Origin: Alcanivorax sp. S71-1-4
GTDB lineage: Bacteria; Pseudomonadota; Gammaproteobacteria; Pseudomonadales; Alcanivoracaceae
Reading direction: 5' to 3'
Length of the DNA: 59,896 nt
Assembly: GCF_009846755.1 (NCBI RefSeq)
Contig: NZ_AQOR01000026.1
Coordinates: 1 to 59,896, forward strand
Position 1 is the stretch's first letter. Every line of letters begins with the position of its first letter. A program made the translations under genes and the position numbers. Positions 9,630-42,033 of this stretch are shown here, piece by piece. Under the pieces are notes generated by a model that saw only the letters and a program-made list of their open reading frames with translations, was not told where the DNA came from and did no database searches.

Positions 9630-9640
9630 ACATGCAAAGT

Positions 9641-15355: not shown

Positions 15356-15622
15356 AGGGAGCCTCTGAATAACTCCCCGGTGGTTCTGCGGGCGCTACAG
15401 CATGCAGTAGCAAGGCGCGGCGCGCCGGCAATGGCCGTAGCCCTTGCCAAGCGACGCAACGCGGCTAATGCGTGCTGTAGCGCCCGCCCTGCGGGGCTTT
15501 CCGGGCGGCGCCTGCGGAGCAAAGCGACTTCTCGACGTAGCCCGCTATGCCTTCGAAGTCGCGCCTTGATCAGATGCCGCCCGGAAAGCCAGAACCACCG
15601 GGGAGTTATTCAGAGGCTCCCT
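15356..15622. repeat. 267-bp palindromic element with cloverleaf-like structure
   Basis: Perfect 33-bp inverted terminal arms lie at 15356-15388 and 15590-15622. Directly inside are two further hairpins: 15389-15405 pairs with 15470-15486 (one mismatch), and 15495-15509 pairs with 15576-15590 (perfect 15 bp), with an inner 8-bp stem at 15524-15531/15555-15562. The fold is an outer stem with two side hairpins. No transposase is encoded, so it resembles a MITE. A target duplication is not clear: AG flanks both sides, but alternatives exist. The end of a second copy is at 1-22. Confidence 0.85.
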
Positions 15623-15659
15623 AGCTGCGTCGGTTTCACCGCATTACCGGAGCACCCCC

Positions 15660-17297
15660 ATGCCTGTCTCGACGACCGCCTCTGTCGACGTCCGCCACCT
15701 GACCTGCACTCTGCCGGATGGCCAGACGCCGTTTCATCATCTCAACCTGCAACTGGACCAGCGCGCCACCGGCCTGACCGGCCGCAACGGCAGCGGCAAA
15801 TCCCTGCTGGCCGCCCTGATTGCGGGCGTCTCGCCGCCCACCCAGGGCGAGGTGCACCATGCCGTGCCGGTGGCCTACCTGCCGCAACATCCGGATGTCA
15901 CCGCCACCCCCGATGTCGCTGCCCTCAGCGGCCACGGCGCCGTGCTGAACGCCCTCAGACGGCTGGAGGAGGGTCACGGCACCCCGCAGGACGTCGAACG
16001 AGCCGAGGGCCAGTGGGACCTGCGCGAGCGATTGCAACACGCACTCAGCGACGCCGGCCTGCGCGACCTGCCGCTGGCCACCGCCAGCCGCCATCTCAGC
16101 GGCGGCGAAGCCACCCGGGTCATGCTCGCCGGCCTGTGGCTGCGCTCCGATCACTATCTGGTGCTGGACGAACCCGGCAATCATCTGGACGCCGCCGGCC
16201 GTGACTGGCTGCGCACCAGAATCCGCCAGCACCGGCCTGGCGTCTTGTTGGTCAGCCACGACCGCACCCTGCTCGACGGGATGACGCGCATCCTGTCCCT
16301 CGACAGCGACGGGCTGCACAGTTTCAGCGGCGGCTACCAGGCCTGGCGCCAACACCGCGCACAGCGACAACAGGCAGCACAGCAGGCACTGGACCATGCG
16401 CGCGCAGCAAAGCGCCGTGGTGAACGCGCCCTGCAAACCGAACACGACCGGCAGCAACACCGCGCCGCCGCCGGCCGCCACAAAGGCCGCGACAGCAACC
16501 AGGCGCAGATCCTGCTGGACCGTCAGAAAGAACGCAGCGAAGGCACTGCCGGCGCCCATCAGCGCCGCCGGAGCGCACAACGTGATGCGCTCGCCGCGCA
16601 GGTCCGCGACGCCGCCGCCCGCGTGGCCGAAGCACCCGGCATTCATTTTATTTCCGGCGCGGCGACACCGCCCGCCGGCCGCCGCGTGCTGACACTGGAT
16701 CAACTGGTGCTGCCCCACAGCCCGCCACAACGACCGCCCCTGACACTCACCCTGACCGGCGCCCAGCGGCTGGCCCTCACCGGCGACAACGGCAGCGGCA
16801 AGAGCACCCTGCTGCGCACGATCGCCGGGCAATGCCAGCCCGTCGCGGGCCAGTGCAGCGCGCAGGTGCCCGTGGCCCTGCTCACCCAGGACCAGCATCT
16901 CGGCGACGCCACACACGCCCTCGCCGCCCTGCTGGCCGCCGACCCGACGCTGTCCATCGCCGACGCCCGCACCCGGCTGGCCCAGGCCGGCCTGGACGAA
17001 CAGGCCATTGTGCGCCCGCCCGCACAGCTCAGCGGCGGCGAGCGGCTCAAGGCCGCTCTGCTGTGCGCACTGAGCCGCGCGCCGACACCGCAACTCCTGC
17101 TGCTGGATGAACCGGACAACCACATCGACCCGGACGCCATCGATGCCGTGGAACACCTGCTGCGGAGCTGGCAGGGCGCCCTGATCGTGGTCTCGCATGC
17201 ACGGCCTTTTCTGGAGGCGCTGGCGCTGACCGGCGAGCTGGCACTGCATGCCGGCGGCTGGCAGCTCACTGAACACCTCACAGGACAAGCGCCATGA
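15660..17297 (+). CDS. ABC-F family ATP-binding protein
   Basis: A 545-residue soluble protein with two ABC ATPase domains and no membrane helices, as in ABC-F proteins that act on ribosomes. Domain 1 has Walker A GRNGSGKS (about residue 41), signature LSGGEATR and Walker B YLVLDEPGNHLD. Domain 2 has GDNGSGKST (about residue 378), LSGGERLK and LLLLDEPDNHID. Between them is a linker rich in Arg, Gln and Ala (about residues 225-310), the P-site tRNA interaction region in characterised members. Family roles range from translation factors to antibiotic resistance; I cannot choose between them. GGAG precedes the ATG. Confidence 0.85.
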   Translation: MPVSTTASVDVRHLTCTLPDGQTPFHHLNLQLDQRATGLTGRNGSGKSLLAALIAGVSPPTQGEVHHAVPVAYLPQHPDVTATPDVAALSGHGAVLNALRRLEEGHGTPQDVERAEGQWDLRERLQHALSDAGLRDLPLATASRHLSGGEATRVMLAGLWLRSDHYLVLDEPGNHLDAAGRDWLRTRIRQHRPGVLLVSHDRTLLDGMTRILSLDSDGLHSFSGGYQAWRQHRAQRQQAAQQALDHARAAKRRGERALQTEHDRQQHRAAAGRHKGRDSNQAQILLDRQKERSEGTAGAHQRRRSAQRDALAAQVRDAAARVAEAPGIHFISGAATPPAGRRVLTLDQLVLPHSPPQRPPLTLTLTGAQRLALTGDNGSGKSTLLRTIAGQCQPVAGQCSAQVPVALLTQDQHLGDATHALAALLAADPTLSIADARTRLAQAGLDEQAIVRPPAQLSGGERLKAALLCALSRAPTPQLLLLDEPDNHIDPDAIDAVEHLLRSWQGALIVVSHARPFLEALALTGELALHAGGWQLTEHLTGQAP

Positions 17298-17389
17298 CAG
17301 CCGCGCCCGTCACTGCGGCCAACGCCCGCATGGCGAGCAGGCTCTATGCTGCGGCCTTATTCCTTCCGGCACATCACAGGACAGCGATC

Positions 17390-18415
17390 ATGACGGAGAC
17401 GCAGCGCGCCAAGGCCGAACAACTGCTCAATGCCCAGGTGGGCTACCTGCTCAGCCAGCTCGACCCCAAACAGTTCAAGAAGCTGGCCAAAGAGGAAATC
17501 GACATCGCTTTCAAGGTGATGAAAACGTTGCGCCTGAATGACGTGGTCAGCGCAGAACAGGTACGCCATACCGCACGCCGCTACGCGGTAGAGATGGACA
17601 TCTCCGGCGCCATTCCCGAGCTGATCGGTGAAATCGCCGACCGGCTCTATAACCACCCCGGCCACGACAAGAACAGCTTCGAAGACCTGATCAGCGACCA
17701 GGAAGTGGCCGAACTGCTGGACGTGGTGCTGGAAATGGACGCGCTGCGCCAGCGCCTGATCAGCGAGATCGCCGGCAGCCCGCTGACCATCAACCTGATC
17801 TCCGACATGCTGTACCGCGGCATCCAGGGTTTCATCACCCAGGGCACCAACATGGCCGGCAGCATCCCCGGCGCCAGTTCGATGCTCAAGCTGGGCAAGT
17901 CGGTGGTCAGCAAGGCCGCCCCCGGCCTGGAAAAATCCGCCGAGCAGAACATCAAGAAGTACATCGCCCACAACACGCGCAGCATCATTCGCCAGAGCGA
18001 GAAACGGCTGGAGAAGGCCATCGAGAATGGTGAGTTTCGCCAGGCAATGCTGGATTTCTGGGACGAGATCAAGGAACAGAAGGTCGCCACCCTGCGCCGC
18101 TATGTCACCCGCGACGAACTGGAAGATGCCATGGTCACCGGCCTGGAAGCCTGGAAACAGTTCCGCGCCACCCGCTACTTCGGCAACCTGCTCGATGCTG
18201 GGGTGGATTTCTTCTTTGAAAAATACGGCGACACCGCCCTGGACAAACTGATCGGCGAAATGGGCGTGGACAAGAAAATGGTGCTCGACGAAGCCCTGCG
18301 CTACGCCCCGCCGATCATCGAGGTGCTCAAGGAGCGCGGCATCCTGCAGGACACCCTGCGCCGCCGCCTGGAAGGCTTCTGGTTCGCCGACAGCACCCTG
18401 GCACTGCTGAAGTAA
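17390..18415 (+). CDS. Conserved-looking helical protein, function unknown
   Basis: A 341-residue protein with strong coding character. It is almost entirely helical and rich in Glu, Lys and Leu, without a signal peptide. Segments include LDPKQFKKLAKEEIDIAFKVM near the N-terminus, a slightly hydrophobic middle with GIQGFITQGTNMAGSIPGASSMLKLGKS (about residues 142-170), and the amphipathic DALRQRLISEIAG. It may associate with the membrane through the Gly-rich middle. The ATG at 17390 has AGGA upstream and follows the ABC-F stop by 92 bases. I do not recognise a family. Confidence 0.75.
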   Translation: MTETQRAKAEQLLNAQVGYLLSQLDPKQFKKLAKEEIDIAFKVMKTLRLNDVVSAEQVRHTARRYAVEMDISGAIPELIGEIADRLYNHPGHDKNSFEDLISDQEVAELLDVVLEMDALRQRLISEIAGSPLTINLISDMLYRGIQGFITQGTNMAGSIPGASSMLKLGKSVVSKAAPGLEKSAEQNIKKYIAHNTRSIIRQSEKRLEKAIENGEFRQAMLDFWDEIKEQKVATLRRYVTRDELEDAMVTGLEAWKQFRATRYFGNLLDAGVDFFFEKYGDTALDKLIGEMGVDKKMVLDEALRYAPPIIEVLKERGILQDTLRRRLEGFWFADSTLALLK

Positions 18416-18424
18416 TCCACCCGC

Positions 18425-18441
18425 GCCCCGCTTTGCGGGGC
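18425..18441 (+). terminator. Hairpin after the helical protein gene
   Basis: GCCCCGC and GCGGGGC form a 7-bp stem around TTT, 10 bases after the stop. A C-rich rather than T-rich tail follows, so support for intrinsic termination is partial. Confidence 0.4.
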
Positions 18442-18516
18442 CTGCCCCCCTGCATTGCCTGGCATCGTTGCGGTATGATGCCGCCTTTCCTCACCCCATG
18501 GCCGCACGAACCCTCC

Positions 18517-19119
18517 ATGAGTGAACGCAACGATCGTCTGCGCTGGCAAGTCGTCACCGGCCTGCTCAAGCACTTTCACCTGGAACGCTGGAGCGAGCGC
18601 TTCAACCCGCGTCTGGTCCTGGCCGGGTTCAACTTCATCAATGCCGGCGTCAGCATTACCCTGATCGCCTTTATCGCCCTGATCAGCCAGGAAGCCTTCA
18701 TCTTCCCCTCGCTGGGCGCTACCGCCTTCCTGCTGTTCTACCTGCCGCTGGCAGAAGCCTCTGCGCCACGCAACGTGCTCTGCGGCCACCTGATCGGCGC
18801 CCTGGTGGGCTGGCTCAGCCTGGCCACCTTCGGCCTGCTGGACGAGCCCTCGGCGATGATCAATGGCGTCGAGCTGCCCCGGGTGGCCGCCGCCGGCCTG
18901 GCCCTGGGCACCACCTGCTTCCTGATGGTGCTGCTGCGGGTGGTGCACCCGCCCGCCGCCGCCACCTCACTGATGGTGGCACTGGGCACCATGACCAGCC
19001 TGCACCAGATCGAAGTGCTGCTGGCCGGTGTGGTGCTGCTGCTGATCCAGGCCATGGTCATCAATCGCCTGGCCGGCATTCCCTATCCGGTCTGGTCGAA
19101 GCACACGCCGGACACTTGA
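18517..19119 (+). CDS. HPP family membrane protein
   Basis: A 200-residue integral membrane protein with four or five hydrophobic helices and the family signature VVHPPAAATSL at about residues 151-161. The early segment FIFPSLGATAFLLFYLP matches the conserved helix of HPP proteins. Cyanobacterial members transport nitrite; others are uncharacterised, so a small-anion transport role is only a suggestion. I chose the ATG at 18517 because the upstream frame is Cys/Pro-rich and unlike the family. A LexA-like box begins four bases after its stop. Confidence 0.8.
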   Translation: MSERNDRLRWQVVTGLLKHFHLERWSERFNPRLVLAGFNFINAGVSITLIAFIALISQEAFIFPSLGATAFLLFYLPLAEASAPRNVLCGHLIGALVGWLSLATFGLLDEPSAMINGVELPRVAAAGLALGTTCFLMVLLRVVHPPAAATSLMVALGTMTSLHQIEVLLAGVVLLLIQAMVINRLAGIPYPVWSKHTPDT

Positions 19120-19123
19120 CGCA

Positions 19124-19139
19124 CTGTCCATAAGGACAG
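19124..19139 (+). promoter_or_regulatory. LexA (SOS) box, palindromic, upstream of dnaE2
   Basis: CTGTCCATAAGGACAG has the full CTGT-N8-ACAG consensus and 6-bp perfect arms. It lies 230 bases upstream of the dnaE2 start and is the only strong LexA-like site between hpp and dnaE2. A promoter overlapping it would give a long leader carrying the tandem repeats at 19300-19354. Confidence 0.7.
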
Positions 19140-19299
19140 TAATCTGGGCGTCCGGTGAGCACACGGATTCCTGTGGTACTGCAACACCACCCCGTGACGA
19201 TCTCCCCCAGCGCCAGGGACGGCGCTTGCTCCCGGACCTTTTCCCGATGCCCTGCATCCCCTGTGCAGCATGTGCGGCATGCACAATGCCCTGCACACC

Positions 19300-19354
19300 A
19301 AACAGTCTGCACAAACAGTCTGCACAAACGGTCACTGCACAACGGTCACTGCAC
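19300..19354 (+). repeat. Tandem 13-15 bp direct repeats in the dnaE2 leader
   Basis: Two exact copies of AAACAGTCTGCAC (19300-19312, 19313-19325) are followed by two near-copies of AACGGTCACTGCAC (19326-19340, 19341-19354). They end 15 bases before the dnaE2 ATG. They may be a slippage-born tract or a multi-copy binding site; the shared core is TGCACAAA. Confidence 0.8.
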
Positions 19355-19369
19355 AAAGAGCCCGCCCCG

Positions 19370-22300
19370 ATGTTCGCCGAGCTGCACGTCACCACCTCAT
19401 TCACCTTCCTGACCGGTGCCAGCCAGCCCGATGAACTGGTGCACCGCGCCCTGGCGCTGGGTTACAGCGCGCTGGCCATCACCGATGAATGCTCCCTGGC
19501 CGGGGTCGTGCGTGCCTGGCAGGCCGCACGCGATACGCCGCTGCACCTGATCGTCGGCAGCCGCGTCCGCCTCACTGGCGAGCCGGCCCCCCAGGTGATC
19601 CTGCTGGCCCCGGACCAGCCCGCCTACGCCAACCTGTGCCAACTGATCACCCTGGCCCGCCGCAACAGTGAAGAAAAAGGCCGCTACCACCTGACGCCGG
19701 CAATGCTCGCCGCCCACAGCGAGCACCTGCTGTGCCTGTGGCTGCCGGGGCCTGACGCCGCCCACCACGACACCGAACTGCGCTGGCTCGCCGGCCTGTT
19801 TCCCGACCGGCTGTGGATTGGCTGCGCCCTGTTGCAGGACACCGACGACGCCGCGCTGTACCAGCAACTGTATCAACTGGCCTGCACCCACCACCTGCCG
19901 ATGGTGGCCTGCAACGACGTCCACATGCATGACCCGCAGCGGCAGCCTTTGCTGGATGTCCTCACCGCACTGCGGCACCACACCACCGTGCAGACTCTCG
20001 GCTCATTGCGTTTCGCCAATGCAGAGCGTCATTTGCGACCGCTGGCCAGGCTGCGTGCGATCTACCCGCCGGCACTGCTTGAAGAAACCCTGCGCATCGC
20101 CGGGCGCTGTACCTTCCGGCTTGATGCGTTGCGCTATCACTATCCGCGCGAGGTGGTGCCCGAGGGCCTGAGCGCCGCCGGTTATCTGCGGCAACTGGTG
20201 GACGAAGGCGCCGCCCGGCGCTGGCCTGGAGAAGGCATGCCCGCCGCCGTGCGCAAGCAGGTCGAACAGGAACTCGCCCTGATTCGCGAGCTGGAATACG
20301 AATATTACTTCCTCACCGTGCACGACATCGTCGCCTTTGCCCGCGGCCAGGGCATCTTCTGCCAGGGACGCGGCTCGGCGGCCAACTCCGCCGTCTGTTA
20401 CTGCCTGGGCATCACCGAAGTGGACCCGTCGCGCAGCCAGTTGCTGTTCGAACGCTTCCTCTCCCGCGAGCGCGACGAGCCACCGGATATCGACGTGGAT
20501 TTCGAACACGAACGGCGCGAGGAAGTAATCCAGTACATCTACCGTAAATACAGCCGCGAGCGCGCCGCACTGGCTGCCACCGTGATCAGCTACCGGCTGC
20601 GTTCCGCGATCCGCGATGTCGGCCGCGCCCTGGGATTCGACCAGCACCGGCTGGCACTGCTCAGCAAACAGCTCGCCTGGTGGGACAAACCCGACACCCT
20701 GCCCGAGCGCTTTCGTGAAGCGGGCCTGAAAGACACCCGCCTCGCGCGGCTGTTCCAGGCCCGCGTGGTCGAACTGCTCGGCTTCCCGCGCCACCTCTCC
20801 CAGCATGTCGGCGGTTTCGTTATCAGCCAGCCGCCGCTGGCCACGCTGGTCCCGGTGGAAAACGCCGCCATGCCGGAGCGCACCATCATCCAGTGGGACA
20901 AGGACGATCTCGAAGCCCTCGGCCTGATGAAAGTCGATGTGCTGGCGCTGGGCATGCTCACCGCCATTCGCAAGATGCTCGATGTCATCAACGGCTACCG
21001 CCACGCTGCCGGCCGTGCCGCCCTGACCGTGCAGGACATTCCGGCAGAAGACCCCGCCACCTACGACATGCTCTGCAAGGCCGACAGTGTCGGCGTATTC
21101 CAGGTGGAATCCCGCGCGCAGATGAGCATGCTGCCGCGCCTGAAACCGCGCCGGTTTTATGATCTGGTGATCCAGGTGGCGATCGTGCGGCCCGGCCCGA
21201 TCCAGGGCGACATGGTGCACCCCTTTCTGCGCCGCCGGGACGGCACCGAAGCCGTGGATTACCCCGACGAACGCATTGAGGGCGTGCTCTGCCGCACCCT
21301 CGGCATTCCCATCTTCCAGGAACAGGTCATCCAGATGGCCATGGTGGCCGCCAACTTCAGCGGCGGCGAAGCCGATCAGCTACGGCGCGCCATGGCACGC
21401 TGGGGCAAGAGCGGCGAGCTGCTGCAATTCCGCGACAAAGTCATTCACGGCATGCTCGGCAACGGCTACAGCCCGGAATACGCCGAACGGATTTTCGAAC
21501 AGATGAAAGGCTTTGGCGGCTACGGTTTCCCTGAATCGCATTCCGCCAGTTTTGCGCTGCTGGTGTATCTGTCTGCCTGGCTCAAGCGACATCACACCAG
21601 CGCGTTCTATTGCGGCCTGCTGAACAGCCTGCCGATGGGATTTTATTCACCGTCACAGCTGCTTCAGGACGCACGCCGTCACGGCATCGAAGTACGCCCG
21701 CCGTGCGTGGACCACAGCCACTGGGACTACACCCTGGAAGACACCCACCGCCAGCCGCTGGGCATGCAGCCGGCTGTGCGCGTCGGCCTGCGGCAGGTCA
21801 GCGGTTTCAATGAAGACGCCGCACAACGTATCCTGCAGGCCCGCCGCGACGCGCGTTTCACCGATGTCGCCGATCTGTGCGCCCGCGCGCGTCTGGACCG
21901 CCGTGAGCGCGAAGCACTGGTGGCCGCCAACACCATGGCCCGGCTCACCGGCCACCGCCATCAGGGCCAGTGGGAAATTCTCGCCGTGCAGGCATCACCA
22001 CCGCTGTTCGACCAGCCTGTGCACAGCCACAACCTGCGGGATGGCGTACGCCTGGACGCCCCCTCTGAAGTGGACAACCTGCTCGCCGATTACCGCAGCC
22101 TGAGCCTGACCCTCGGCCGCCACCCGATGGCACTGGTGCGCCACCGCACACCGTTCAACCGCTGCCAGAGCGCACGGGATCTGCGGCGGCTCAATCAGGG
22201 CCGTTTTGTACGTGTGGCGGGCGTGGTCACCAACCGCCAGCGCCCCGGCACCGCCTCGGGCGTGCTGTTCCTGACACTGGAAGATGAAACCGGCAATACC

Positions 22301-22486
22301 AGCGTGATCGTCTGGCGCACGCTGCAGGAACGCTGCCGCAAGGCCATCCTCAGAGGTCAGTTGCTGGTGGTGAAAGGCACGCTGGAAAAAACCGAAGAAG
22401 GCGTGATCCACGTGATCGCCGGGGAAATCCTCGACGAGAGCCACGCCCTCGCCGAGTTGAAAACCCGCTCGCGGGATTTTCACTGA
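19370..22486 (+). CDS. dnaE2: DnaE2, error-prone DNA polymerase III alpha
   Basis: A 1038-residue C-family polymerase, the catalytic subunit of the ImuA/ImuB/DnaE2 translesion machine. A PHP domain opens the protein (MFAELHVTTSFTFLTGAS), with the degenerate metal site usual for DnaE2. The polymerase core follows with FCQGRGSAANSAVCYCLG, the catalytic acidic motif PDIDVDFEH (about residues 372-380) and the second acidic motif LMKVDVLALGML (about 519-530). A C-terminal OB fold carries RFVRVAGVVTNRQRPGTASGVLF. I start at 19370 because the 48 upstream in-frame codons are Cys-rich and lie in the repeat tract. It is separated from imuAB by 11 kb but has its own LexA box. Confidence 0.93.
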   Translation: MFAELHVTTSFTFLTGASQPDELVHRALALGYSALAITDECSLAGVVRAWQAARDTPLHLIVGSRVRLTGEPAPQVILLAPDQPAYANLCQLITLARRNSEEKGRYHLTPAMLAAHSEHLLCLWLPGPDAAHHDTELRWLAGLFPDRLWIGCALLQDTDDAALYQQLYQLACTHHLPMVACNDVHMHDPQRQPLLDVLTALRHHTTVQTLGSLRFANAERHLRPLARLRAIYPPALLEETLRIAGRCTFRLDALRYHYPREVVPEGLSAAGYLRQLVDEGAARRWPGEGMPAAVRKQVEQELALIRELEYEYYFLTVHDIVAFARGQGIFCQGRGSAANSAVCYCLGITEVDPSRSQLLFERFLSRERDEPPDIDVDFEHERREEVIQYIYRKYSRERAALAATVISYRLRSAIRDVGRALGFDQHRLALLSKQLAWWDKPDTLPERFREAGLKDTRLARLFQARVVELLGFPRHLSQHVGGFVISQPPLATLVPVENAAMPERTIIQWDKDDLEALGLMKVDVLALGMLTAIRKMLDVINGYRHAAGRAALTVQDIPAEDPATYDMLCKADSVGVFQVESRAQMSMLPRLKPRRFYDLVIQVAIVRPGPIQGDMVHPFLRRRDGTEAVDYPDERIEGVLCRTLGIPIFQEQVIQMAMVAANFSGGEADQLRRAMARWGKSGELLQFRDKVIHGMLGNGYSPEYAERIFEQMKGFGGYGFPESHSASFALLVYLSAWLKRHHTSAFYCGLLNSLPMGFYSPSQLLQDARRHGIEVRPPCVDHSHWDYTLEDTHRQPLGMQPAVRVGLRQVSGFNEDAAQRILQARRDARFTDVADLCARARLDRREREALVAANTMARLTGHRHQGQWEILAVQASPPLFDQPVHSHNLRDGVRLDAPSEVDNLLADYRSLSLTLGRHPMALVRHRTPFNRCQSARDLRRLNQGRFVRVAGVVTNRQRPGTASGVLFLTLEDETGNTSVIVWRTLQERCRKAILRGQLLVVKGTLEKTEEGVIHVIAGEILDESHALAELKTRSRDFH

Positions 22487-22518
22487 GCAGCCTGGCCGCC
22501 CGGCGCAAAAACGCTGGC

Positions 22519-24303: not shown

Positions 24304-24679
24304 CGTAAAGCTCCTTTGAATTCTGTATTGATTCCGTGCCAAGGCACCTGATCGGGAACGCACACACCCGGCGCCTTCAACCTCTGGCGCCTGCACCTTC
24401 CTTCGCGGCCTTCGCATCGCTACTGCGAGCGCTTTTTTTCGCTTCGCCAATGCATCGAGGATCACGTTGCATCGCGGCCCACATGGTAGTTTTCCCGTCC
24501 GGTTTACCGTTATCGTGCAAATGCACTACACTGAACGGCACTCAGGAAAGGGTACGATCCAGCCAGCCGCACCGCTCTGCGCCCCGATACAGACCTGTCC
24601 GACACGCACGTCGAACAGGGCATGCACGAGGGATTCGAGAGGTAACGGCTGGCAGGTGACAATAAAAAAGGACAGGGCC
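24304..24679. other. 376-bp divergent gap between lipoprotein and LuxR genes
   Basis: No coding sequence is convincing here. It should contain both divergent promoters. The only symmetric site I see is GTGCA-AA-TGCAC at 24515-24526. The right end carries a good ribosome binding site (AAGGA, 7 bases before the luxR ATG). Confidence 0.5.
24515..24526. promoter_or_regulatory. Small palindrome upstream of the LuxR gene
   Basis: GTGCA and TGCAC are perfect 5-bp inverted repeats separated by AA, in the divergent gap. It is a possible site for the adjacent LuxR-type regulator, but short palindromes arise by chance. Confidence 0.25.
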
Positions 24680-25609: not shown

Positions 25610-25670
25610 TTGGCCTGGCTCCACGGTGAACGCCGAACCGGCAGCGGGCTTTGTCAGGCATGAAGGTCTC

Positions 25671-25698
25671 AAAAAAAACCCCGGTGGGTAGGCCGGGG
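25671..25698 (-). terminator. Rho-independent terminator for the 25755-26228 gene
   Basis: Read on the minus strand, CCCCGG (complement of 25693-25698) pairs with CCGGGG (complement of 25679-25684) around an 8-base loop, followed by eight T. It lies 57 bases after the stop of the small secreted protein gene. Confidence 0.75.
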
Positions 25699-25754
25699 GC
25701 GTATCTAAACTGCTCTCAGGCAGAAACAGAACAAAAGAGTGACACGCGCCAGCC

Positions 25755-29501: not shown

Positions 29502-29531
29502 GTGTCGCTCCCTGCCCTGCCGCCGTTCTGA

Positions 29532-32878: not shown

Positions 32879-32922
32879 AACATCCCACTACCGACAGCAA
32901 ACGCGTGGGGCATAATACTGCA

Positions 32923-34809: not shown

Positions 34810-35207
34810 TGCTGACTGTTACCGCCCTCTATACGGGCCTGTTCCTGCTACTGATGCTGGCGCTGGCCGCCAACGTGGTGCGCAACCGCCTGAGCGGCCA
34901 GGTGTCCCTCGGCGACGGCGGCAAGCCGGTGCTGCAACAGGCGGTACGCGCCCACGGCAACGCCGCCGAGTACATCCCGATCGTGCTGATTGGCCTGGGG
35001 ATTCTGGAAAACCTGGGCACCGGCGCGGCGATGCTGCATCTCTACGGGGCGGTGTTTTTTATCGGCCGCCTGATGCACGCCTGGGGGCTGGCACAGCCCA
35101 ACACCACCAACAACGCCCGCAAGGGGGGCATCGTGCTGAGCTGGCTGGTGATGCTGGTGATGGCGCTGCAATTGCTGTGGAAAGCGCTGGCGCACATGAT
35201 GCTTTGA
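34806..35207 (+). CDS. MAPEG family membrane protein (YecN-like)
   Basis: A 133-residue protein with four transmembrane helices and the family core VRAHGNAAEYIPIVLIGLGILE at about residues 47-68, followed by GRLMHAWGL. It matches the bacterial YecN-type branch of the MAPEG superfamily, whose eukaryotic members act in eicosanoid and glutathione metabolism; the bacterial role is undefined. The ATG overlaps the mnmC stop (ATGA), with GGAG 10 bases upstream, so translation is probably coupled. ATG at 34809 is an alternative. Confidence 0.85.
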   Translation: MMLTVTALYTGLFLLLMLALAANVVRNRLSGQVSLGDGGKPVLQQAVRAHGNAAEYIPIVLIGLGILENLGTGAAMLHLYGAVFFIGRLMHAWGLAQPNTTNNARKGGIVLSWLVMLVMALQLLWKALAHMML

Positions 35208-35209
35208 GT

Positions 35210-35455
35210 TCAGCTTTCGCCGTCCGGGTCCAGCCCCATTTCCTGCAACTGCTGGCGGGAAAGGATCGACACGGTTTCGGTGGCCTCGTCAAACCAGACT
35301 ACTGCTTCCCCCCGGCGCAACTGCCGGCGCACCTGCTCGACGCGCGTGGTGAGCGGGATTTCGGTTTCACCGTAGTCGGTGCCATCGCGCGTCACGAACT
35401 CCTCGATCAGGTTATCGAGGGTGTCCGGGGGGATTTCCTGCCAGGGCACATGCAT
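35210..35455 (-). CDS. YheU/UPF0270 family protein
   Basis: An 81-residue protein that matches the UPF0270 (YheU) family end to end: an N-terminal VPWQEIPPDTLDNLIEEFVTRDGTDYGE block followed by VEQVRRQLRRGEAVVWFDEATETVSIL. The family is widespread in gammaproteobacteria and has no defined function. The stop is two bases from that of the convergent MAPEG gene. It lies just beyond the terminator of the BVMO gene and so has its own promoter. Confidence 0.88.
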   Translation of the reverse strand: MHVPWQEIPPDTLDNLIEEFVTRDGTDYGETEIPLTTRVEQVRRQLRRGEAVVWFDEATETVSILSRQQLQEMGLDPDGES

Positions 35456-35468
35456 CGCAGCACACCAT

Positions 35469-35502
35469 AAAAAAAGACCGCGCCAGTATACGCTGGCGCG
35501 GT
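35469..35502 (-). terminator. Rho-independent terminator for the BVMO gene
   Basis: On the minus strand a perfect 10-bp GC stem (35493-35502 with 35477-35486, 6-base loop) is followed by C and seven T. It lies 42 bases after the stop of the monooxygenase gene. Confidence 0.88.
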
Positions 35503-35543
35503 GGCTATCGTCAGGGCCTCGTCAGGACGTCGTCAGGCAGCCT

Positions 35544-37028
35544 TCAGTCAATGAGATAGTCCTGCTGATTGAAGCGCCGCGCCCGCAGCCGGAACTCGAA
35601 GGTGAAGCCCGGCCACAACGCGGTGATCTTGCCGCTCTTGTGCTTGTACCAGCTGTCGCAGCCGGTGGCCCAGATCGAGCTGCCCAGCCGCGCCTGCAAT
35701 TTTTCGTTGTAGCGCGCCTGCACTTCCGGGCGCACTTCCAGCACCTTGCCACCGGCCTTGTTGCGCAGCGCCAGCAGACGGGCAATGTAATCCACCTGGG
35801 TTTCGATCATGAAGATCATCGAGGTGTGGCCCAGGCCGGTGTTCGGGCCGATGATGAAATACAGGTTCGGGAAACCGTTCACCAGCGTGCCCAGATACGC
35901 TTCCTCACCGTCTCGCCACGCATGCGCCAGGGTATCGCCGTCGCGGCCATGGACCCGGTCGGCAATGGGGTTCTCGGTAGCATAGAAGCCGGTGGCGAAC
36001 ACCAGCACGTCGATCTCGCGCTCGGTGCCATCGGCGGTAACGATGGAATTCGCACGGATTTCCCGAATGCCATGCGTCACCAGTTCCACGTTCGGCTGTT
36101 GCAGCGCCGGATACCAGTCATTGGAAATCAGGATGCGCTTGCAGCCAATGGTGTAATCCGGCGTCACGATGTCACGCATCGCCTTGTCCTTCACCTGGCG
36201 ACGGATGTGCCACTCGGCCAGCTTCTGAAACAGCGTCATCAGTTTCGGATTCAACACCAGCCCCATCACACGGCTTTCATGGCCCCAATAGATGGCGGCA
36301 CGGTGCAGTTGCCGGGTCAACGGCAACTTGCGGAACAGGGTTTTCTCCGCTGCCAGATAGGCGCGGTCGTTGCGCGGAATGATCCAGTTCGGCGTGCGCT
36401 GATACACGTCCAGCCGGCCGGCCTTTTTGGCGATCTCGGGCACAAGCTGGATCGCGGAAGCGCCGGTGCCGATCACCGCCACGCGCTTGCCGGTCAGGTC
36501 ATAGTCGTGATCCCAGCGCGAGGAATGGAACGTCTTGCCCTGAAAGGTTTCCACACCGGGAATGTCCGGCAGTTTCGGTTCCGCCAGGCCGCCGCTGCCC
36601 ATCACCAGCGAACGCGCGGTGACTTCACCGCTGCTGGTGACCACCCGCCACAGGCCGTTGGCCTCGTCATAGGTGGCATCTTCCAGCGTGCTGTTGAAAC
36701 GGATGTGCGGATACAGGCCGTAGTCGTTGGCGACCTTGCGCAGGTAACGATACAGCTCCGGCTGGGTCGGATACTTGCGCGACCAGTCCGGGTTCGGTGC
36801 GAAGGAAAACGAATACAGGTGCGACGGCACATCACAGGCCGCGCCGGGATAATGGTTGTCCCGCCAGGTGCCACCGACTTCCGCAGCGCGTTCCAGCAGC
36901 ACAAAGCTGTCCTGGCCCTCCTGTTTGAGCCGGATCGCCATGCCCAGCCCGGCAAAGCCGGTGCCGATGATGGCCACTTCCACGTCTGGCGTCGCTTTGT
37001 TGTTCGAGATCTTGTTCGCTGCGCTCAT
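35544..37028 (-). CDS. Flavin-containing / Baeyer-Villiger type monooxygenase
   Basis: A 494-residue class B flavoprotein monooxygenase that would insert oxygen into ketones or oxidise related carbonyls using NADPH and O2. It has the FAD-binding GTGFAGLGMAIRL at about residues 21-33, GGTWRDNHYPGAACDVPS, the BVMO fingerprint FQGKTFHSSRW (FxGxxxHxxxW) at about 160-170, and the NADPH-binding VIGTGASAIQL. The C-terminal ATGF motif (VFATGFYATENP) is also present. The ATG at 37028 has GGAGTG upstream. Divergent from the TetR gene and near alkB, it may act in hydrocarbon or ketone oxidation. Confidence 0.9.
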   Translation of the reverse strand: MSAANKISNNKATPDVEVAIIGTGFAGLGMAIRLKQEGQDSFVLLERAAEVGGTWRDNHYPGAACDVPSHLYSFSFAPNPDWSRKYPTQPELYRYLRKVANDYGLYPHIRFNSTLEDATYDEANGLWRVVTSSGEVTARSLVMGSGGLAEPKLPDIPGVETFQGKTFHSSRWDHDYDLTGKRVAVIGTGASAIQLVPEIAKKAGRLDVYQRTPNWIIPRNDRAYLAAEKTLFRKLPLTRQLHRAAIYWGHESRVMGLVLNPKLMTLFQKLAEWHIRRQVKDKAMRDIVTPDYTIGCKRILISNDWYPALQQPNVELVTHGIREIRANSIVTADGTEREIDVLVFATGFYATENPIADRVHGRDGDTLAHAWRDGEEAYLGTLVNGFPNLYFIIGPNTGLGHTSMIFMIETQVDYIARLLALRNKAGGKVLEVRPEVQARYNEKLQARLGSSIWATGCDSWYKHKSGKITALWPGFTFEFRLRARRFNQQDYLID

Positions 37029-37061
37029 GGTCACTCCGCTGCGGCAGGCATCCTGCCAATC

Positions 37062-37079
37062 TGACAATAGTGCGTGTCA
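37062..37079. promoter_or_regulatory. TetR operator candidate, copy 1
   Basis: TGACA-N8-TGTCA (37062-37079) in the divergent BVMO-TetR gap. A second site with identical arms and spacing lies at 37089-37106. Confidence 0.65.
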
Positions 37080-37088
37080 CTTTACTTC

Positions 37089-37106
37089 TGACAACAAGCC
37101 ATGTCA
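37089..37106. promoter_or_regulatory. TetR operator candidate, copy 2
   Basis: TGACA-N8-TGTCA again, with its centre 27 bp from copy 1. Both copies also share the extension CTGACAA on the left arm. This one ends 11 bases before the tetR ATG, so it suits autoregulation. Confidence 0.65.
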
Positions 37107-37117
37107 ACATTGCCGCC

Positions 37118-37771
37118 ATGAGCACACCCACTCCCCCCAAGCCTCGCCGGGGCCGCGCCTACCGCGGTGTCAGCATCGAGGCACGTCGCGCCGAGCGGCA
37201 CCAGAAACTGCTGGACGCCGGCATCCAGGTGATCGGCAGCCAGGGCTACCACGCCACCACCGTCAAGGCGGTCTGTGCCGAGGCCGGCCTCACCGAGCGC
37301 TATTTCTATGAGTCGTTCAGCAACAGCGAAGCGCTGTTGTGCGAAGCCTATGCGCACATCATCGCCCAGTTGCGCGAGCGCATCGGTACCAGCCTGAGTG
37401 CGCACCAGGCGCAGCCAGACACGCTGATTGAAGCCGCCCTGAACAGTTACTTCACCTACCTGCGCGACCACCCCGGCCATGCCCGGCTGATGATGGTGGA
37501 AGTGCTCGGTGTCAGCCCGACGGTGGACCAGCACTATCGCCGGGTGATGGAGGATTTCGCGGAATTTCTCGCCGCCACGCGACGAGGCCTGTATCCGGCT
37601 CAGGACACCCATGGTGTGGACGAAATGATGATTGCCACCGGCCTGATCGGCGCGCTGGTGAACATGGCCATGCGCTGGATGCTCAGCGGTTTTCGCGAAT
37701 CCCCGGAAAGCGTTGTTGCCGCCGCCCGCACCGTGCTGCTGGCGGTGAACCGGCATCTGCTGGAAGGCTGA
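37118..37771 (+). CDS. TetR/AcrR family regulator
   Basis: A 217-residue regulator with a Pro/Arg-rich N-terminal tail and a TetR helix-turn-helix at about residues 25-70 (LLDAGIQVIGSQGYHATTVKAVCAEAGLTERYFYESFSNSEAL). The rest is a helical effector domain. The ATG at 37118 follows the two TGACA-N8-TGTCA palindromes, which it probably binds, controlling both itself and the divergent BVMO. It is convergent with alkB with no spacer: the stops form TGATCA. Effector unknown, perhaps a hydrocarbon metabolite. Confidence 0.85.
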   Translation: MSTPTPPKPRRGRAYRGVSIEARRAERHQKLLDAGIQVIGSQGYHATTVKAVCAEAGLTERYFYESFSNSEALLCEAYAHIIAQLRERIGTSLSAHQAQPDTLIEAALNSYFTYLRDHPGHARLMMVEVLGVSPTVDQHYRRVMEDFAEFLAATRRGLYPAQDTHGVDEMMIATGLIGALVNMAMRWMLSGFRESPESVVAAARTVLLAVNRHLLEG

Positions 37772-38884
37772 TCAACCGACGTTGATGCGCGACCGGTCGC
37801 CGCCATAGTGATCGATCACGCGTTTGTCCATCACCTGACGCCACAGCGGTGGCACCCACGCCAGCACGATCATCGAGGCATAACCACCGGGCAACTGCGG
37901 CGCTTCATCAAAATGCCGCAGCGACTGGTACGAGCGCGTCGGGTAGGCATGGTGATCGGAGTGCCGCTGCAACTGGTACAGGAAAATATTCGTTACCCGG
38001 CGATTACTGTTCCAGGAATGTTCCGGCCGGCAGGGTTCATAACGGCCATTCTCTTTTTTGCGCCGCAGCAGACCGTAATGCTCGATGTAATTCACCACTT
38101 CCAGCAACTGGAAGCCGAACACCGACTGGATCAGCAGGAACGGCAACAGGCTCCAGCCGAGCCAGAACAGCAGCGCACCCCACAATAGTACCGACAGGCC
38201 CCACGCCTGCAGGTTGTGATTCTGCCAGTGCCACACGGGCTTGCTGTCGCGCGCCAGACGTTCTGCTTCCAGGCGCCACGCCGAGCGCAGACTGCCGAAC
38301 ACGGTGCGTGGCAGAAACCGGTAAAAGCTTTCGCCAAACCGGGACGAGGCCGGGTCTTCCGGTGTCGAAACCCGCACATGGTGGCCACGATTGTGCTCGA
38401 CAAAAAAATGGCCGTAGAACACCGGCGCCAACGCCAGTTTCGCCAGCAGGCGTTCGAAACCATCGGTCTTGTGCCCGAGTTCATGCGCGGTATTGATGGC
38501 AATCCCCATGGCCGTGCCGGTGGTGATGGCGAACCCCAGGTAGCTGTACCACGGCAGCACGTAGGTGGCGGCGACATAACAGGCGGTCACGAACGCCCAG
38601 TATTGAAAGGCCACGGCCACCCAGACCGCCACACGGTAATAGGTTTCACTTTCCAGCCGTGGCACCACCTCTTCCGGCGGGTTCTCGGTTTCCTCGCCGA
38701 GCAGCATATCCAGCAGCGGGATCATGACGAAAACGAATATCGGCCCGAACCACCAGGACAATGCATTGCCGGTGGTATTGGCGAGCAGGATGGCGCCCAG
38801 TGGCAGCAGCATGGTCAGCGTACTGAGCAGCCAGAGATAGCGGCGTTTGTCGGTCCACTCCGGCTGCAACGTCGTGGCGGTCAT
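37772..38884 (-). CDS. alkB: Alkane 1-monooxygenase AlkB
   Basis: A 370-residue inner-membrane di-iron hydroxylase that oxidises n-alkanes to 1-alkanols with electrons from rubredoxin. All histidine boxes are intact: HELGHK (134-139), EHNRGHH (163-169), NYIEHYG (266-272) and LQRHSDHHAYPTRSYQ (305-320). About six hydrophobic helices surround them. The residue that aligns with the chain-length gate Trp55 of Pseudomonas putida GPo1 AlkB is Val51. No rubredoxin gene is in the window. It has its own promoter region between its start and the terminator at 38994-39017. Confidence 0.96.
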   Translation of the reverse strand: MTATTLQPEWTDKRRYLWLLSTLTMLLPLGAILLANTTGNALSWWFGPIFVFVMIPLLDMLLGEETENPPEEVVPRLESETYYRVAVWVAVAFQYWAFVTACYVAATYVLPWYSYLGFAITTGTAMGIAINTAHELGHKTDGFERLLAKLALAPVFYGHFFVEHNRGHHVRVSTPEDPASSRFGESFYRFLPRTVFGSLRSAWRLEAERLARDSKPVWHWQNHNLQAWGLSVLLWGALLFWLGWSLLPFLLIQSVFGFQLLEVVNYIEHYGLLRRKKENGRYEPCRPEHSWNSNRRVTNIFLYQLQRHSDHHAYPTRSYQSLRHFDEAPQLPGGYASMIVLAWVPPLWRQVMDKRVIDHYGGDRSRINVG

Positions 38885-38993
38885 GACGGATCTCCGCAGT
38901 CAGCCCCGTTTAATCCATGCTGGACCCGGCGCACGGCACGTTCAAGGTGACATTTGGCTACCGGATGTTGCGGGAGGTAAATGACGTAACCAT

Positions 38994-39017
38994 AAAAAAG
39001 CCCCGCAGGTGCGGGGC
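38994..39017 (-). terminator. Rho-independent terminator for the porin gene
   Basis: On the minus strand GCCCCGC and GCGGGGC form a 7-bp stem with a 4-base loop, followed by six T. It separates the porin transcript from alkB. Confidence 0.82.
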
Positions 39018-39074
39018 ATAAAGGGAAGACAGGGAGATCAGCGCAATCTTCTGTCAGGAGGCAACAGAACTGCC

Positions 39075-40322
39075 TCAGAAATTGAACTGGGCAGACATCG
39101 CGATGCGGGTCAGGTCTGGCGTATCGCCATTGGCCGTTTCCAGATCGAAATACTGGTATTCCACACCGTAGGTCATGCGCGGCGACGGCGACCACATCAG
39201 GTTGGCGAAGCTGGAGTCATAGCGAGTCGTTACCGCACCGGTATAGTCGCCCGCGTCGCGAATTTTCGAGGTGGAATACGCCACCGTGCTGCGCAGGGTA
39301 TCGGTCCAGTAATGACGGTAGAACACCGAGGCACCCCAGGCATCCACGCCATCGATCTGGTCACCGTTGACGATGGCATCCGGGTACGCACGCAGACCCA
39401 TATAGCGGCCCACATTGCCGTAGTTCACCTGCAGGCGGATATCGTCCTTGCCGATGGTGGGGAAGCGTGCGGTCAGGCTGTAGGCATCGGCCCACTGGCT
39501 GTCGCGATTGACACCGTCATCCAGCGCCAATTTGCGCGCCAGCACACCGGCGGACACATGGCCCCAGCCGCCCTTGAAGGTCAGGCGGGTGATCAGGTCC
39601 GGGGTATCCTGCTCGTCTGCCCCGGTGTCTTCCGGGTTCTCTATCGCCACCTGCCACATGCCGCCTTCGAACGGCACCGTGTAGCGCACCATGGTCTGCC
39701 GCACGAAGTTCACGTTGGCCTGCTGGCCAAAGGCGATCAGCTCACCGATGCCGTTCAGGTCGGTAAAGGTGGACCAGGTCTGACCGATCAGCAGGTTGCC
39801 GTATTCACCATAGGCTTCACGCAGACGCGGCGCATAGCCATTGGAAACGAATTCATTGGCGCCGCTGTGTTCGCCATAAAAATCCCAGGAAACGAACGTC
39901 TTCAGACGTTTGTCACCGATCGGCGTCAGGGTTTCGAACGCGAACCGGCTCTGACGGGCGCCGAGGCTGAAGCGGCCGCTCTTGTTTTCGTCCAGTGCTT
40001 TCAGCGCGGTCGCCGTGACAATTTCATAGTTCTTGCCGTTGCTGAAACCGTTGTCGGAGTAGCTCATGTCCGCTTTGACATAACCACTGAATTTCAGCGT
40101 GGTGTTGCCCACCAGGATGCCGCCACCCGGCGCGGTGCGTACCAGATCCGAACCGGACGCCGGTTGCTCGCGCAGCGCATTGCGCATGGCGTCGATTTCC
40201 TGTTGCAGCGCATCGATCTGCCGTTGCAGGTCTGCACCGTCCTGCGCCAGTGTCGGCAACGGCAACAGCGCGAGTGATCCGAGCAGTACAGCACCGCCTG
40301 CTTTTCTGACTGGATTGAACAT
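39075..40322 (-). CDS. DcaP-like outer membrane porin
   Basis: A 415-residue outer-membrane protein. A signal peptide ending TLAQD is followed by an N-terminal coiled coil (ADLQRQIDALQQEIDAMRNAL, about residues 28-48) and then a 16-strand-type barrel from LKFSGYVKADMSY to the terminal Phe (RIAMSAQFNF). This order is that of the DcaP family of trimeric channels, which take up dicarboxylic acids and related compounds. The ATG at 40322 has GAGAGGA upstream. Next to alkB it may serve uptake of alkane oxidation products or other acids. Two GTATAC sites lie upstream. Confidence 0.88.
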   Translation of the reverse strand: MFNPVRKAGGAVLLGSLALLPLPTLAQDGADLQRQIDALQQEIDAMRNALREQPASGSDLVRTAPGGGILVGNTTLKFSGYVKADMSYSDNGFSNGKNYEIVTATALKALDENKSGRFSLGARQSRFAFETLTPIGDKRLKTFVSWDFYGEHSGANEFVSNGYAPRLREAYGEYGNLLIGQTWSTFTDLNGIGELIAFGQQANVNFVRQTMVRYTVPFEGGMWQVAIENPEDTGADEQDTPDLITRLTFKGGWGHVSAGVLARKLALDDGVNRDSQWADAYSLTARFPTIGKDDIRLQVNYGNVGRYMGLRAYPDAIVNGDQIDGVDAWGASVFYRHYWTDTLRSTVAYSTSKIRDAGDYTGAVTTRYDSSFANLMWSPSPRMTYGVEYQYFDLETANGDTPDLTRIAMSAQFNF

Positions 40323-40492
40323 GGGTGATCCTCTCTGTGTTTTTATTTTCCGGGGCGAACCCCTGTCGGGTTGGCAGGCCGTCACTGCGCGCTCCGCCCC
40401 CGCATCAACCGGGGGGCTCTCCCGAGCCGCGTGCCGTCCTCCGCAGCCGTCGGCGGGGCGTAGCGCCAACCCCCTTCGACGGATTCGGCATA

Positions 40493-40516
40493 CGGTATAC
40501 AGGACACCGTATACAG
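40493..40516. promoter_or_regulatory. Tandem GTATAC sites upstream of the porin gene
   Basis: CGGTATACAG (40493-40502) and CCGTATACAG (40507-40516) are direct repeats with a 14-base period, each around the palindrome GTATAC. FCD-type GntR regulators commonly bind GTATAC-centred sites, and one is encoded at 41066-41767. Position is 171-194 bases upstream of the porin ATG. Confidence 0.45.
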
Positions 40517-40572
40517 AATAATCCAGCCCGAATCCGCCCCTGACGCCGGCGGCTTCGGGCCTGTCGGCCCTC

Positions 40573-40983
40573 TCAGGCCGGCGTATTCAGCAGGAAGGAA
40601 CCGCGGCCGGTCGCCACTTTCCTGCCCTGCTCGTCCATCACATCCGCATTGCCCACCAGCACCTTGCGGCCCGGCTTGATGATCTCCGCGCGGGCCGTCA
40701 GCACACCCTGGCCCGACGGGCGCAGGAAGCTGACGTTCAGGTCCACCGTCAGCGGTTTCGAATCGAACCCGCAGACGCCGCGCACCGCGCTGCCCAGCAC
40801 CGTGTCGATCAGCACACAGTAGATGCCGCCGTGCACCATGCCGTAGGCCTGCAACAGCTGGTCGTGTACCGGCAGCGTCACTTCCGCCACGCCCCCGTCA
40901 ACAAAACTCACGGAGACACCCAGAAACTTGCGAAACGGGTTGGTCTCGTTCCAGGCGATCTCGTGTTCGGTTGTCCAGCTCAT
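40573..40983 (-). CDS. PaaI family hot-dog thioesterase
   Basis: A 136-residue hot-dog fold protein of the PaaI group, which hydrolyses acyl-CoA thioesters. Core landmarks are NPFRKFLGVSVSFVDGGVAEVTLPV, the central helix region AYGMVHGGIYCVLIDTVLGSAV with its HGG motif, and the strand TVDLNVSFLRPSGQGVLTARA. It has the short length normal for the family. It is divergent from the GntR gene and upstream of the porin gene on the same strand. The substrate is unknown. Confidence 0.85.
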   Translation of the reverse strand: MSWTTEHEIAWNETNPFRKFLGVSVSFVDGGVAEVTLPVHDQLLQAYGMVHGGIYCVLIDTVLGSAVRGVCGFDSKPLTVDLNVSFLRPSGQGVLTARAEIIKPGRKVLVGNADVMDEQGRKVATGRGSFLLNTPA

Positions 40984-41065
40984 CGGTATCCCGTTACCCG
41001 CCGCGCGGCATGCGCGCGAGTTCGTGTTAATCTATGGCCGCTCTGTCAGCCCGGAACGCCATGCC

Positions 41066-41767
41066 ATGCCCAGCCCCAAATCATCCAGCCTGAAGCCATC
41101 CAGCCTGACCCCGGTCCGCCGCCGCTCCATCGAGGAGGAGGTTTACCTGCGCATGCGCGAGGCGATCCTCAGTGGCGAAATGGCCGGCGGCGACCGCCTG
41201 ATCCATGAAGAGCTGGCTGGCCGTTTCGGCACCAGCCGCATCCCGGTGCGCGATGCGCTGCGTCGCCTGCAGGCCGATGGCCTGGTGGAGACCGACAGCC
41301 GCGGCGTCTACACCGTCACGCCCTGCGCCATCGAGGACGTGGAAGAAATCTATTCCCTGCGTGCGCTGCTCGAAGCGCGCGCGGTGGCCCTGGCCACACC
41401 GCACCTGAGCAAGGCCGACCTGGCCGAACTGCACCAGTTGCAGCAGGCCATGGACGCCACCGAAAGCAGCGGCGACGTGCACAGCTACGTGACCCTCAAC
41501 CAGCAGTTCCACCACGCTATTTACGAAGCCGCGCGGCAGCCGCGATTGCTGAAGATCATCGTCAGCCTGTGGCAGGGGCTGCCGCCGCTGACACCGCTGA
41601 AGATTCACTCCCGGGTGCCCGCCGCCAACCGCGAGCACCATGCCATCCTGCGTGCCCTGGCCGAGGGCGATGCCGAGGCCGCTGCGGCGGCCATGGCGCG
41701 GCACATCGACAATGCCGGTGTCGCACTGCGCGACTACATTGCCGAGGCCGGCGGGCAACTGCGTTAG
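41066..41767 (+). CDS. GntR family regulator, FCD type
   Basis: A 233-residue regulator. An N-terminal winged helix-turn-helix (about residues 22-85, VYLRMREAILSGEMAGGDRLIHEELAGRFGTSRIPVRDALRRLQADGLVE) is followed by an all-helical FCD effector domain with metal-ligand residues such as the Asp/His pattern in LNQQFHHAIYEAA and REHHAILRAL. FCD regulators usually respond to carboxylic acids. Its TAG stop is completed by the first base of the palindromic element inserted at 41767. The GTATAC sites at 40493-40516 are candidate targets. Confidence 0.85.
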   Translation: MPSPKSSSLKPSSLTPVRRRSIEEEVYLRMREAILSGEMAGGDRLIHEELAGRFGTSRIPVRDALRRLQADGLVETDSRGVYTVTPCAIEDVEEIYSLRALLEARAVALATPHLSKADLAELHQLQQAMDATESSGDVHSYVTLNQQFHHAIYEAARQPRLLKIIVSLWQGLPPLTPLKIHSRVPAANREHHAILRALAEGDAEAAAAAMARHIDNAGVALRDYIAEAGGQLR

Positions 41768-42033
41768 GGCCTGTTCACACTCATTCCAATGGCCCTGCTG
41801 GCCCTGTTTTGCCGCCCCGCAAGGCAGCCGGTGCGTAGTGTGGCGGGTCCACATGAGCAGCGGCTAACGCGGCGGGGTGGCAAAACAGGGCCAGCCCTTC
41901 GGGTTGAGCCTGAAAACGCGCCGCTCCGCGTTGCTCGTCGTTCATTTGGGTCCACCAAACTTCTCTCCTCGCGCCTTGATCGGCGCGTTTTCAGGCTCAA
42001 CAGGGCCATTGGAATGAGTGTGAACAGGCCCTA
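41765..42033. mobile_element. 265-bp MITE-like palindromic element with TA duplication
   Basis: Perfect 31-bp inverted arms at 41767-41797 and 42001-42031 are flanked by TA on both sides (41765-41766, 42032-42033). Inside are two hairpins: 41798-41820 pairs with 41872-41894 (23 bp, one mismatch), and 41903-41922 pairs with 41982-42001 (20 bp, perfect). No transposase is encoded. TA duplications suit IS630/Tc1-like or some IS5-group transposases supplied elsewhere. The element sits in the stop codons of two convergent genes and may also terminate transcription from both sides. Confidence 0.88.

Follow-up and report, generated by a model that had tools for sequence, protein, structure and literature searches.

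What are two perfect palindromes, alike in fold and loop motifs and unrelated in their stem sequences, doing in a bacterial genome? The question is raised by a contig of Alcanivorax sp. S71-1-4 (NZ_AQOR01000026.1, assembly GCF_009846755.1), whose whole analysed stretch of 59,896 nucleotides is called the window here. A sequence-only reading of the window had described two palindromic elements with perfect arms, each folding into an outer stem followed by hairpins A and B, and had suggested a structured RNA or a protein-bound DNA fold. With small coordinate corrections, both palindromes are present: the outer arms of element 1 pair perfectly over 33 nt (15356-15388 with 15590-15622, both read on the plus strand) and those of element 2 over 31 nt (41767-41797 with 42001-42031). 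Folding either element with DNA parameters recovers the proposed outer stem, hairpin and second hairpin, with a short spacer between the hairpins. As RNA, elements 1 and 2 reach folding energies of -197.5 and -194.2 kcal/mol (z of -14.7 and -16.4), and none of 200 shuffles is equally stable. The two elements belong to a family of miniature non-autonomous transposable elements (MITEs) that carry a conserved hairpin module, and the suggested function is narrowed to a single-stranded fold, as RNA or single-stranded DNA, of the strand bearing the motif CAAGGC. The mobility of the elements with a 4-bp target duplication, the identity of the two hairpins as one inverted, repeated module and the strand-specific constraint on that module all go beyond the sequence-only reading.

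Within an element, hairpin B repeats on the other strand the module that forms hairpin A, the two being arranged head to head. The module measures about 97 nt (96-98) and consists, in order, of a 22-nt stem strand, a CAAGGC(G/A) box, 39-41 nt that include an inner hairpin, an AACGC(A/G)G box and the 22-nt partner strand. Folded, it presents a 22-bp stem, an internal loop made of the two boxes, a short helix and the inner hairpin. A double element has an outer arm of about 31 nt, a module, a spacer of some 6-12 nt, the inverted module and the other arm, and CAAGGC starts 52-56 nt from the ends of intact double elements (after 52-54 nt at either end in the copies read from both ends). Three separate loop motifs had been proposed; all are present, one of them, GCGGCTAATGCG, beginning at 15461 rather than 15462, and they reduce to the two boxes viewed from both strands. 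Because the hairpins are inverted copies of one module, reverse-complementing the start box GATCAAGGCGCG gives CGCGCCTTGATC.

In element 1, module A occupies 15389-15486 on the plus strand (covariance model R1, 76.3 bits, E 6.7e-18), with its CAAGGC box at 15411-15416 and its AACGCGG box at 15458-15464. Module B lies at 15495-15590 on the minus strand (44.2 bits, E 2.2e-9); its CAAGGC box, GCCTTG on the plus strand, is at 15563-15568, and its AACGCGG box has been replaced. Module A of element 2 (41798-41894, plus strand, 73.5 bits, E 3.8e-17) has its boxes at 41820-41825 and 41866-41872, in the form CAAGGCA/TAACGC. Module B (41904-42000, minus strand, 84 bits, E 6e-20) carries CAAGGC at 41973-41978 (again GCCTTG on the plus strand) and AACGCGG at 41926-41932. 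The loop motifs alone, searched in the window with up to two mismatches, are not enriched (14 against 11.2 expected; 20 against 23.2), so the case is carried by the family and not by these two copies.

Such a family is readily found in the 4.18-Mb genome from which the window comes. There CGCGCCTTGATC occurs 11 times, nine times inside elements and twice outside them (contigs C4 and C18), against no occurrence of a reversed-pattern control. BLAST with element 1 returns ten further full or partial copies and solitary arms, BLAST with element 2 six further copies and arms, and a third kind of element, with arms that differ from both, lies at C1:90445. In the wider search across genomes, single-module elements of about 160 bp also occur, in which two 53-nt arms pair over most of their length. 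The motifs are thus neither confined to two places nor borne by unrelated remnants lacking covariation. For the covariation analysis, 34 of 49 equal-length, non-redundant modules were aligned without gaps (alignment A2), the best paired being taken first, so that helix 1 is favoured by the selection and helix 3, the inner hairpin, is not selected on. Pairing is kept in 89.0% of helix cells (49.1% in shuffled alignments), changes on both sides occur in 481 cells (159 when shuffled), and the covariation score reaches 0.972 (0.209 when shuffled); none of 500 shuffles equals any of these values. The inner hairpin is paired in 82.8% of its cells, with all 7 of its 7 pairs changed on both sides, and sliding the partners by 1-3 columns lowers pairing to 35-42%.

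With a covariance model built from A2, the four modules are the only matches in the window up to E = 1. The model matches 26 modules in the own genome and 47 in G035, a single-contig sister genome from the same genus, including members of all three subfamilies and the CAAGGCA/TAACGC form absent from the model; a few of the 34 training rows stem from these two genomes. The check that had been proposed, a covariance model run against the genome and its relatives, therefore yields many matches with compensatory stem changes and constant loops, and these matches, with the covariation statistics, support the idea that structure and loop sequence are kept while stems differ. That the stems change nearly completely around one kept hairpin suggests a function for the fold as such.

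Which strand carries this fold can be read from the mismatches. A stem rule requiring at least 13 of 22 Watson-Crick pairs, with G.T and A.C treated alike, is passed by 187 of 405 motif sites, and 110 modules remain after removal of those more than 80% identical. Among the unpaired cells of the 22-bp stem, read on the CAAGGC strand, G.T and T.G number 183 against 55 for A.C and C.A (p 3e-17); by module, 68 are biased towards G.T, 13 towards A.C and 29 are tied. Because a G.T mismatch read on the opposite strand becomes an A.C, neither random decay nor a double-stranded signal should favour one of the two. The test can be repeated within single elements: 42 double elements, all head to head (42/42) and 41 of them with modules spaced 103-109 nt apart, hold two opposed modules, each with the excess on its own strand (47:10 and 38:9). 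Twenty-three of the 42 come from the own and sister genomes, and the 19 from elsewhere give 29:6 and 23:7. An excess of wobble pairs on each module's own strand indicates a constraint on the single-stranded fold of that module in its orientation, so that a double element carries one such fold per strand. The statistics thus show that what is conserved in the module is the fold of the single strand bearing CAAGGC.

The elements are also mobile. Twenty-two filled sites of the sister genome were delineated and their joined 150-nt flanks matched to the own genome. Empty sites were read in 18 of the 22; two (L121, L158) are occupied in the own genome too, and two (L133, L135) matched piecewise. In 11 of the 18 empty-site comparisons the flanks share exactly 4 bp, and two of these 11 lead to the same locus of the own genome. 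Both target copies and the empty site are identical in five cases, CAAG four times and TTAA once. Terminal inverted repeats, a length below about 600 bp, dispersed copies, the lack of a transposase gene and the target duplication are all present, and the classification of the elements as MITEs is well supported. Set by the target duplication, the transposed units are 15358-15620 (element 1, subfamily GGAGCCTCTGAATAACTCC) and 41768-42030 (element 2, subfamily GGCCTGTTCACACT), 263 bp each; for element 1 the 4-bp rule from sister-genome copies was applied to the same kind of arm, which leaves the outermost 2 nt of its left arm as flank. One sister-genome insertion is found at two places with related flanks in opposite orientation (L129 and L137), both matching one locus of the own genome, and this element may also have been copied together with a larger segment. 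The idea that target copies correct themselves to a palindrome (CTAG/CTGG against an empty CCAG) was dropped, as the CAAG copies show no such correction; at a single site, three outgroups aligned too poorly to decide the matter.

The 4-bp duplication and the terminal inverted repeats, which begin with GG in the delineated copies, point to the IS5 family. IS5 transposases (NF033581) with GG-starting ends and 4-bp duplications occur in the own genome, where one copy (E 2e-103) has the ends GGATGCTCTGCAC and the duplication CTAA, and in genome G268, where one end reads GGAAACACTGATCAATGG and the duplication TAAG. In G268 a 299-bp hairpin element ends in GGAGACACTGATCAATGT, identical to the former insertion-sequence end at 16 of 18 positions and to the other end at 12 of 18. 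IS5 is described as duplicating YTAR (PMC10359306). The targets CTAG, TTAA, CTAA and TTAG fit this consensus; CAAG, most frequent among the exact duplications, requires the looser YWAR. PF01609 transposases are scarce, being present in 6 of the 10 genomes searched. An autonomous partner with the same arms was sought in the own and sister genomes with the subfamily 1 arm pattern at up to three mismatches, which returned only element pairs and solitary arms. A scan of 25 loci (solitary arms, contig ends and further copies, with open reading frames (ORFs) inspected at one) showed no insertion sequence with subfamily 1 ends, the ends of subfamilies 2 and 3 not having been searched by pattern. The link of the elements to the IS5 family is suggestive, not proven.

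YTAR targets contain stop codons on both strands, so that their duplication can spare both members of a convergent gene pair, which is the case at element 2. Its left target copy, TTAG (41764-41767), contains the TAG stop of a GntR/FCD-family gene (40928-41767), and its right copy, CTAG (42031-42034), which differs by one base, contains the stop of an AMP-binding gene on the minus strand (42031-43587); through the duplication each gene is left with its own stop. A single TTAG target at 41764-42034 would have held overlapping stops of the two genes. The site is occupied in the sister genome too (L378), indicating an old insertion; compared over positions 41738-42060 of the window, the sister-genome copy differs by one substitution and a 22-nt loop insertion that splits the CAAGGC box of its module B. 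None of 38 copies lies inside a gene by a crude ORF caller based on G+C by codon position (6 of the 38 unknown, some copies being orthologues or duplicates of each other). Of 32 flanking stop codons, 9 fall exactly at the junction, where the duplicated target supplies them. An intergenic location fits a role as RNA and does not prove one.

The module family is widespread in proteobacteria and turns up sporadically in other phyla. In genome sets of one genome per species, in which copy-number differences within species are not visible, the two-box pattern CAAGGCGC-gap-GCAACGC(A/G)G matches 19 of 46 genomes of the family (no match of the reversed-pattern control) and 75 of 369 of the class (control matches in 5); with a narrower gap it matches 60 of 398 genomes of the phylum (control matches in 7). 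Some of these are chance matches in coding sequence. The pairing of the 22-nt stem, which lies outside the search pattern, separates the cases: leaving out duplicates and sites with too little flank, it is found at 12/12 motif sites of the own genome, 22/22 of the sister genome, 23/28 of the family, 22/32 of the class and 53/120 of the named-genome set among the matches listed, against 11/2000 mispaired nulls. Viral contigs carry the motif mostly by chance (stem at 2/109). A module in which 15 or more of the 22 stem positions pair is present in 44 of 116 named-genome stretches among the matches listed, which include Variovorax, Pelomonas, Collimonas, Herbaspirillum, Guyparkeria, Bowmanella, Streptomyces and Lachnoclostridium as hosts, and metagenome bins labelled Elusimicrobia and Verrucomicrobiota, although bins can be mislabelled. 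Plasmid records gave short matches only, in 1 and 3 records (Azotobacter, Halomonas), and phage records no match to element 2, the element run against them.

Taken together, the elements are best read as IS5-type MITEs whose module works folded as a single strand, most likely as RNA, a reading that is, as a whole, slightly more probable than not. An IS5-family transposase acting in trans would move the elements, and their terminal repeats would have changed over time to suit different transposases. Read-through transcription across an element would allow the module to act as RNA, and the inverted pair would offer one correctly oriented module whichever strand is transcribed. More speculatively, the module might bind a widely conserved host factor, and transcripts crossing or ending in an element might be processed, stabilised or insulated, which would make insertions near gene ends tolerable. 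A bolder and unlikely version, put forward tentatively, would make these elements a new class of mobile structured RNA: the 97-nt module would be recognised by a conserved bacterial factor and ride on changing IS5-type ends through many lineages, the head-to-head doubling being an adaptation to either direction of transcription.

Several observations weigh against the reading as mobile elements with a module acting as RNA. Neither element has a match resembling an intrinsic terminator or a sigma-70 promoter. Single-stranded DNA, too, tolerates G.T better than A.C, so that the strand bias does not prove RNA. Much of the bias is held by the G-rich pairs 5-8 (78 against 4), although 105 against 51 remain without them (p 2e-5), and it is absent from pairs 1-4, which adjoin the boxes (8 against 5). 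Double changes occur in 32/34 pairs, a number that does not exceed the shuffles (mean 30.8, reached by 129/500) because of the high variability of the columns. The widest searches demanded both boxes, making box invariance there partly a matter of construction. Copies without a box, without a whole module (L018, L020, L021, L047) or with loop insertions that lengthen modules up to 138 nt indicate that no single copy looks indispensable. As to mobility, the other seven of the 18 comparisons overlap by 13, 2, 1, 1, -2, -3 and -6, sites that appear to have changed since insertion or been misread. The flanks of element 1, AGAG (15354-15357) and, at the right junction, CTAG (15621-15624), preserve no target duplication and have no match in the sister genome. 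No insertion sequence with the elements' own ends was found in the own and sister genomes by the subfamily 1 arm pattern or at PF01609 loci, and two genomes with module matches (G314, G203) have no PF01609 match.

The excess of G.T over A.C also fits a module that works as single-stranded DNA, its hairpin extruded on the lagging strand or in transposition and bound by the transposase or by a host hairpin-binding protein. So does the position of CAAGGC, whose 52-56 nt from the end amount to about five helical turns, as do outer arms perfect over about 31 nt, longer than a usual recognition repeat, and the purine mismatches of the inner helix (81 G.A and 44 A.G cells), a kind that is stable in DNA as in RNA. 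A double element, however, has one sense and one antisense module on each strand, both modules with the excess on their own strand, so that no single strand of the whole element is favoured, and none of nine PF01609 insertion-sequence loci read contains the module; we regard this explanation as possible, if on balance unlikely. It is improbable that the module has no function, its palindromes being kept perfect by hairpin-templated correction during replication and its boxes being inherited relics. Such correction would explain why arms are free of mismatches in 15 of 19 delineated sister-genome copies although the copies differ, and loops that gain insertions freely are in keeping with it. 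Relics, on the other hand, would not keep boxes, spacing and inner hairpin across phyla with unrelated stems, and templated correction should leave no strand bias among the remaining mismatches. The few differences between the element 2 orthologues, one substitution and one insertion, argue that stems are not rewritten fast.

Strong covariation and intergenic location would also suit dispersed genes for a regulatory or structured RNA, with no transposable element involved, an explanation contradicted by the empty sites and the 4-bp target duplications and hardly credible. No match to Rfam at the gathering score was found in the window, and 15 further loci gave only a tRNA and a glycine riboswitch; the matches of the two elements below threshold are to miRNA hairpins, RtT and sbcD. 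Just as little probability attaches to REPINs, an integron attC array or unrelated insertion-sequence remnants, which would likewise be palindromic, intergenic and repeated, attC sites moreover acting as folded single strands. The long terminal repeats and the 4-bp duplication speak against them, as does the fit of all three subfamilies to one covariance model. By eye, no scan having been run, the boxes contain no RYYYAAC core as attC sites need, the nearest sequence, GGCTAAC, violating position 2. The elements share with MITEs the terminal repeats, small size, dispersed copies and target duplication, depart from REPINs by that duplication and from attC sites by the core site, and match no Rfam family at the gathering score in the window or the 15 further loci.

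Other observations concern the repeats more broadly. Nine subfamily 1 copies (L013, L016, L019, L021, L125, L131, L158, L159, L160) carry a mini palindrome of about 20 nt, TACCCCATTCGGGGCACAGG, after GCAA in their loops, in some copies precisely within AACGCGG, as though one site attracted an even smaller element or a template switch. Solitary arms of about 19-24 nt without a partner occur at L153 (4833), L154 (5012), L162 (4341) and L163 (3352), and a collapsed copy of about 40 nt (L142) still has TTAA on both sides. Positions 1-19 of the window (minus strand) are an outer arm of a further subfamily 1 copy, cut by the contig end and followed by TTAG. Other contigs of the genome (C8, C21, C26, C46, C58) likewise start or end in such repeats, indicating that assembly breaks fall at repeats. 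At 9635-9822 of the window lies another palindromic element, with arms of 31 nt (87%) and 26 nt (88%), that contains GTAGGGTGGGTAGAGCGAAAGCGAAACCCACC; no module of about 97 nt was matched in it.

The common view of MITEs is of insertion-sequence remnants in decay; here the inside is most conserved and the ends are changeable. A module acting as RNA would imply a widespread bacterial ligand yet to be discovered, and one acting as a DNA fold would reveal something new about IS5 transposition. In either case, the covariance model detects members that have no stem sequence in common. A literature search found no description of this element family, sequence motifs being poorly searchable in text; a survey of stem-loop families in 40 genomes exists (PMC2267715), whose families were not compared in sequence with these elements.

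Among known systems, the terminal repeats of adeno-associated virus (AAV) type are T-shaped, an outer stem topped by two hairpins, and form a virus end replicated by an HUH nuclease; the resemblance is one of shape only, as here an element is inserted with a 4-bp duplication. REPINs, REP doublets moved by RAYT, are likewise non-autonomous, intergenic pairs of inverted hairpins, yet they are shorter and lack a target duplication, whereas a 4-bp duplication and IS5-like ends are present here. The attC sites of integrons keep structure with variable sequence and fold as a specific single strand, as the module does, but are without the terminal repeats and target duplication of these elements. In ordinary MITEs the arms are alike through common descent and little of the interior is conserved. 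QMITE2 of Coxiella and other MITEs are described as giving stable stem-loop transcripts, some tied to small RNAs, the QMITE2 repeats being 7-9 bp direct repeats (PMC10969869). QMITE2 shares the stable stem-loop fold with the present elements, and the passages of that source which were seen mention neither a conserved module nor covariation for it. Close, too, are the IS5-derived bacterial MITEs, which are equally short, without a transposase gene, bounded by GG-starting repeats and a 4-bp duplication, and present in many intergenic copies. The family described here differs from them in that repeats and stems diverge totally among its members, while an internal module of fixed geometry is kept across genera and phyla.

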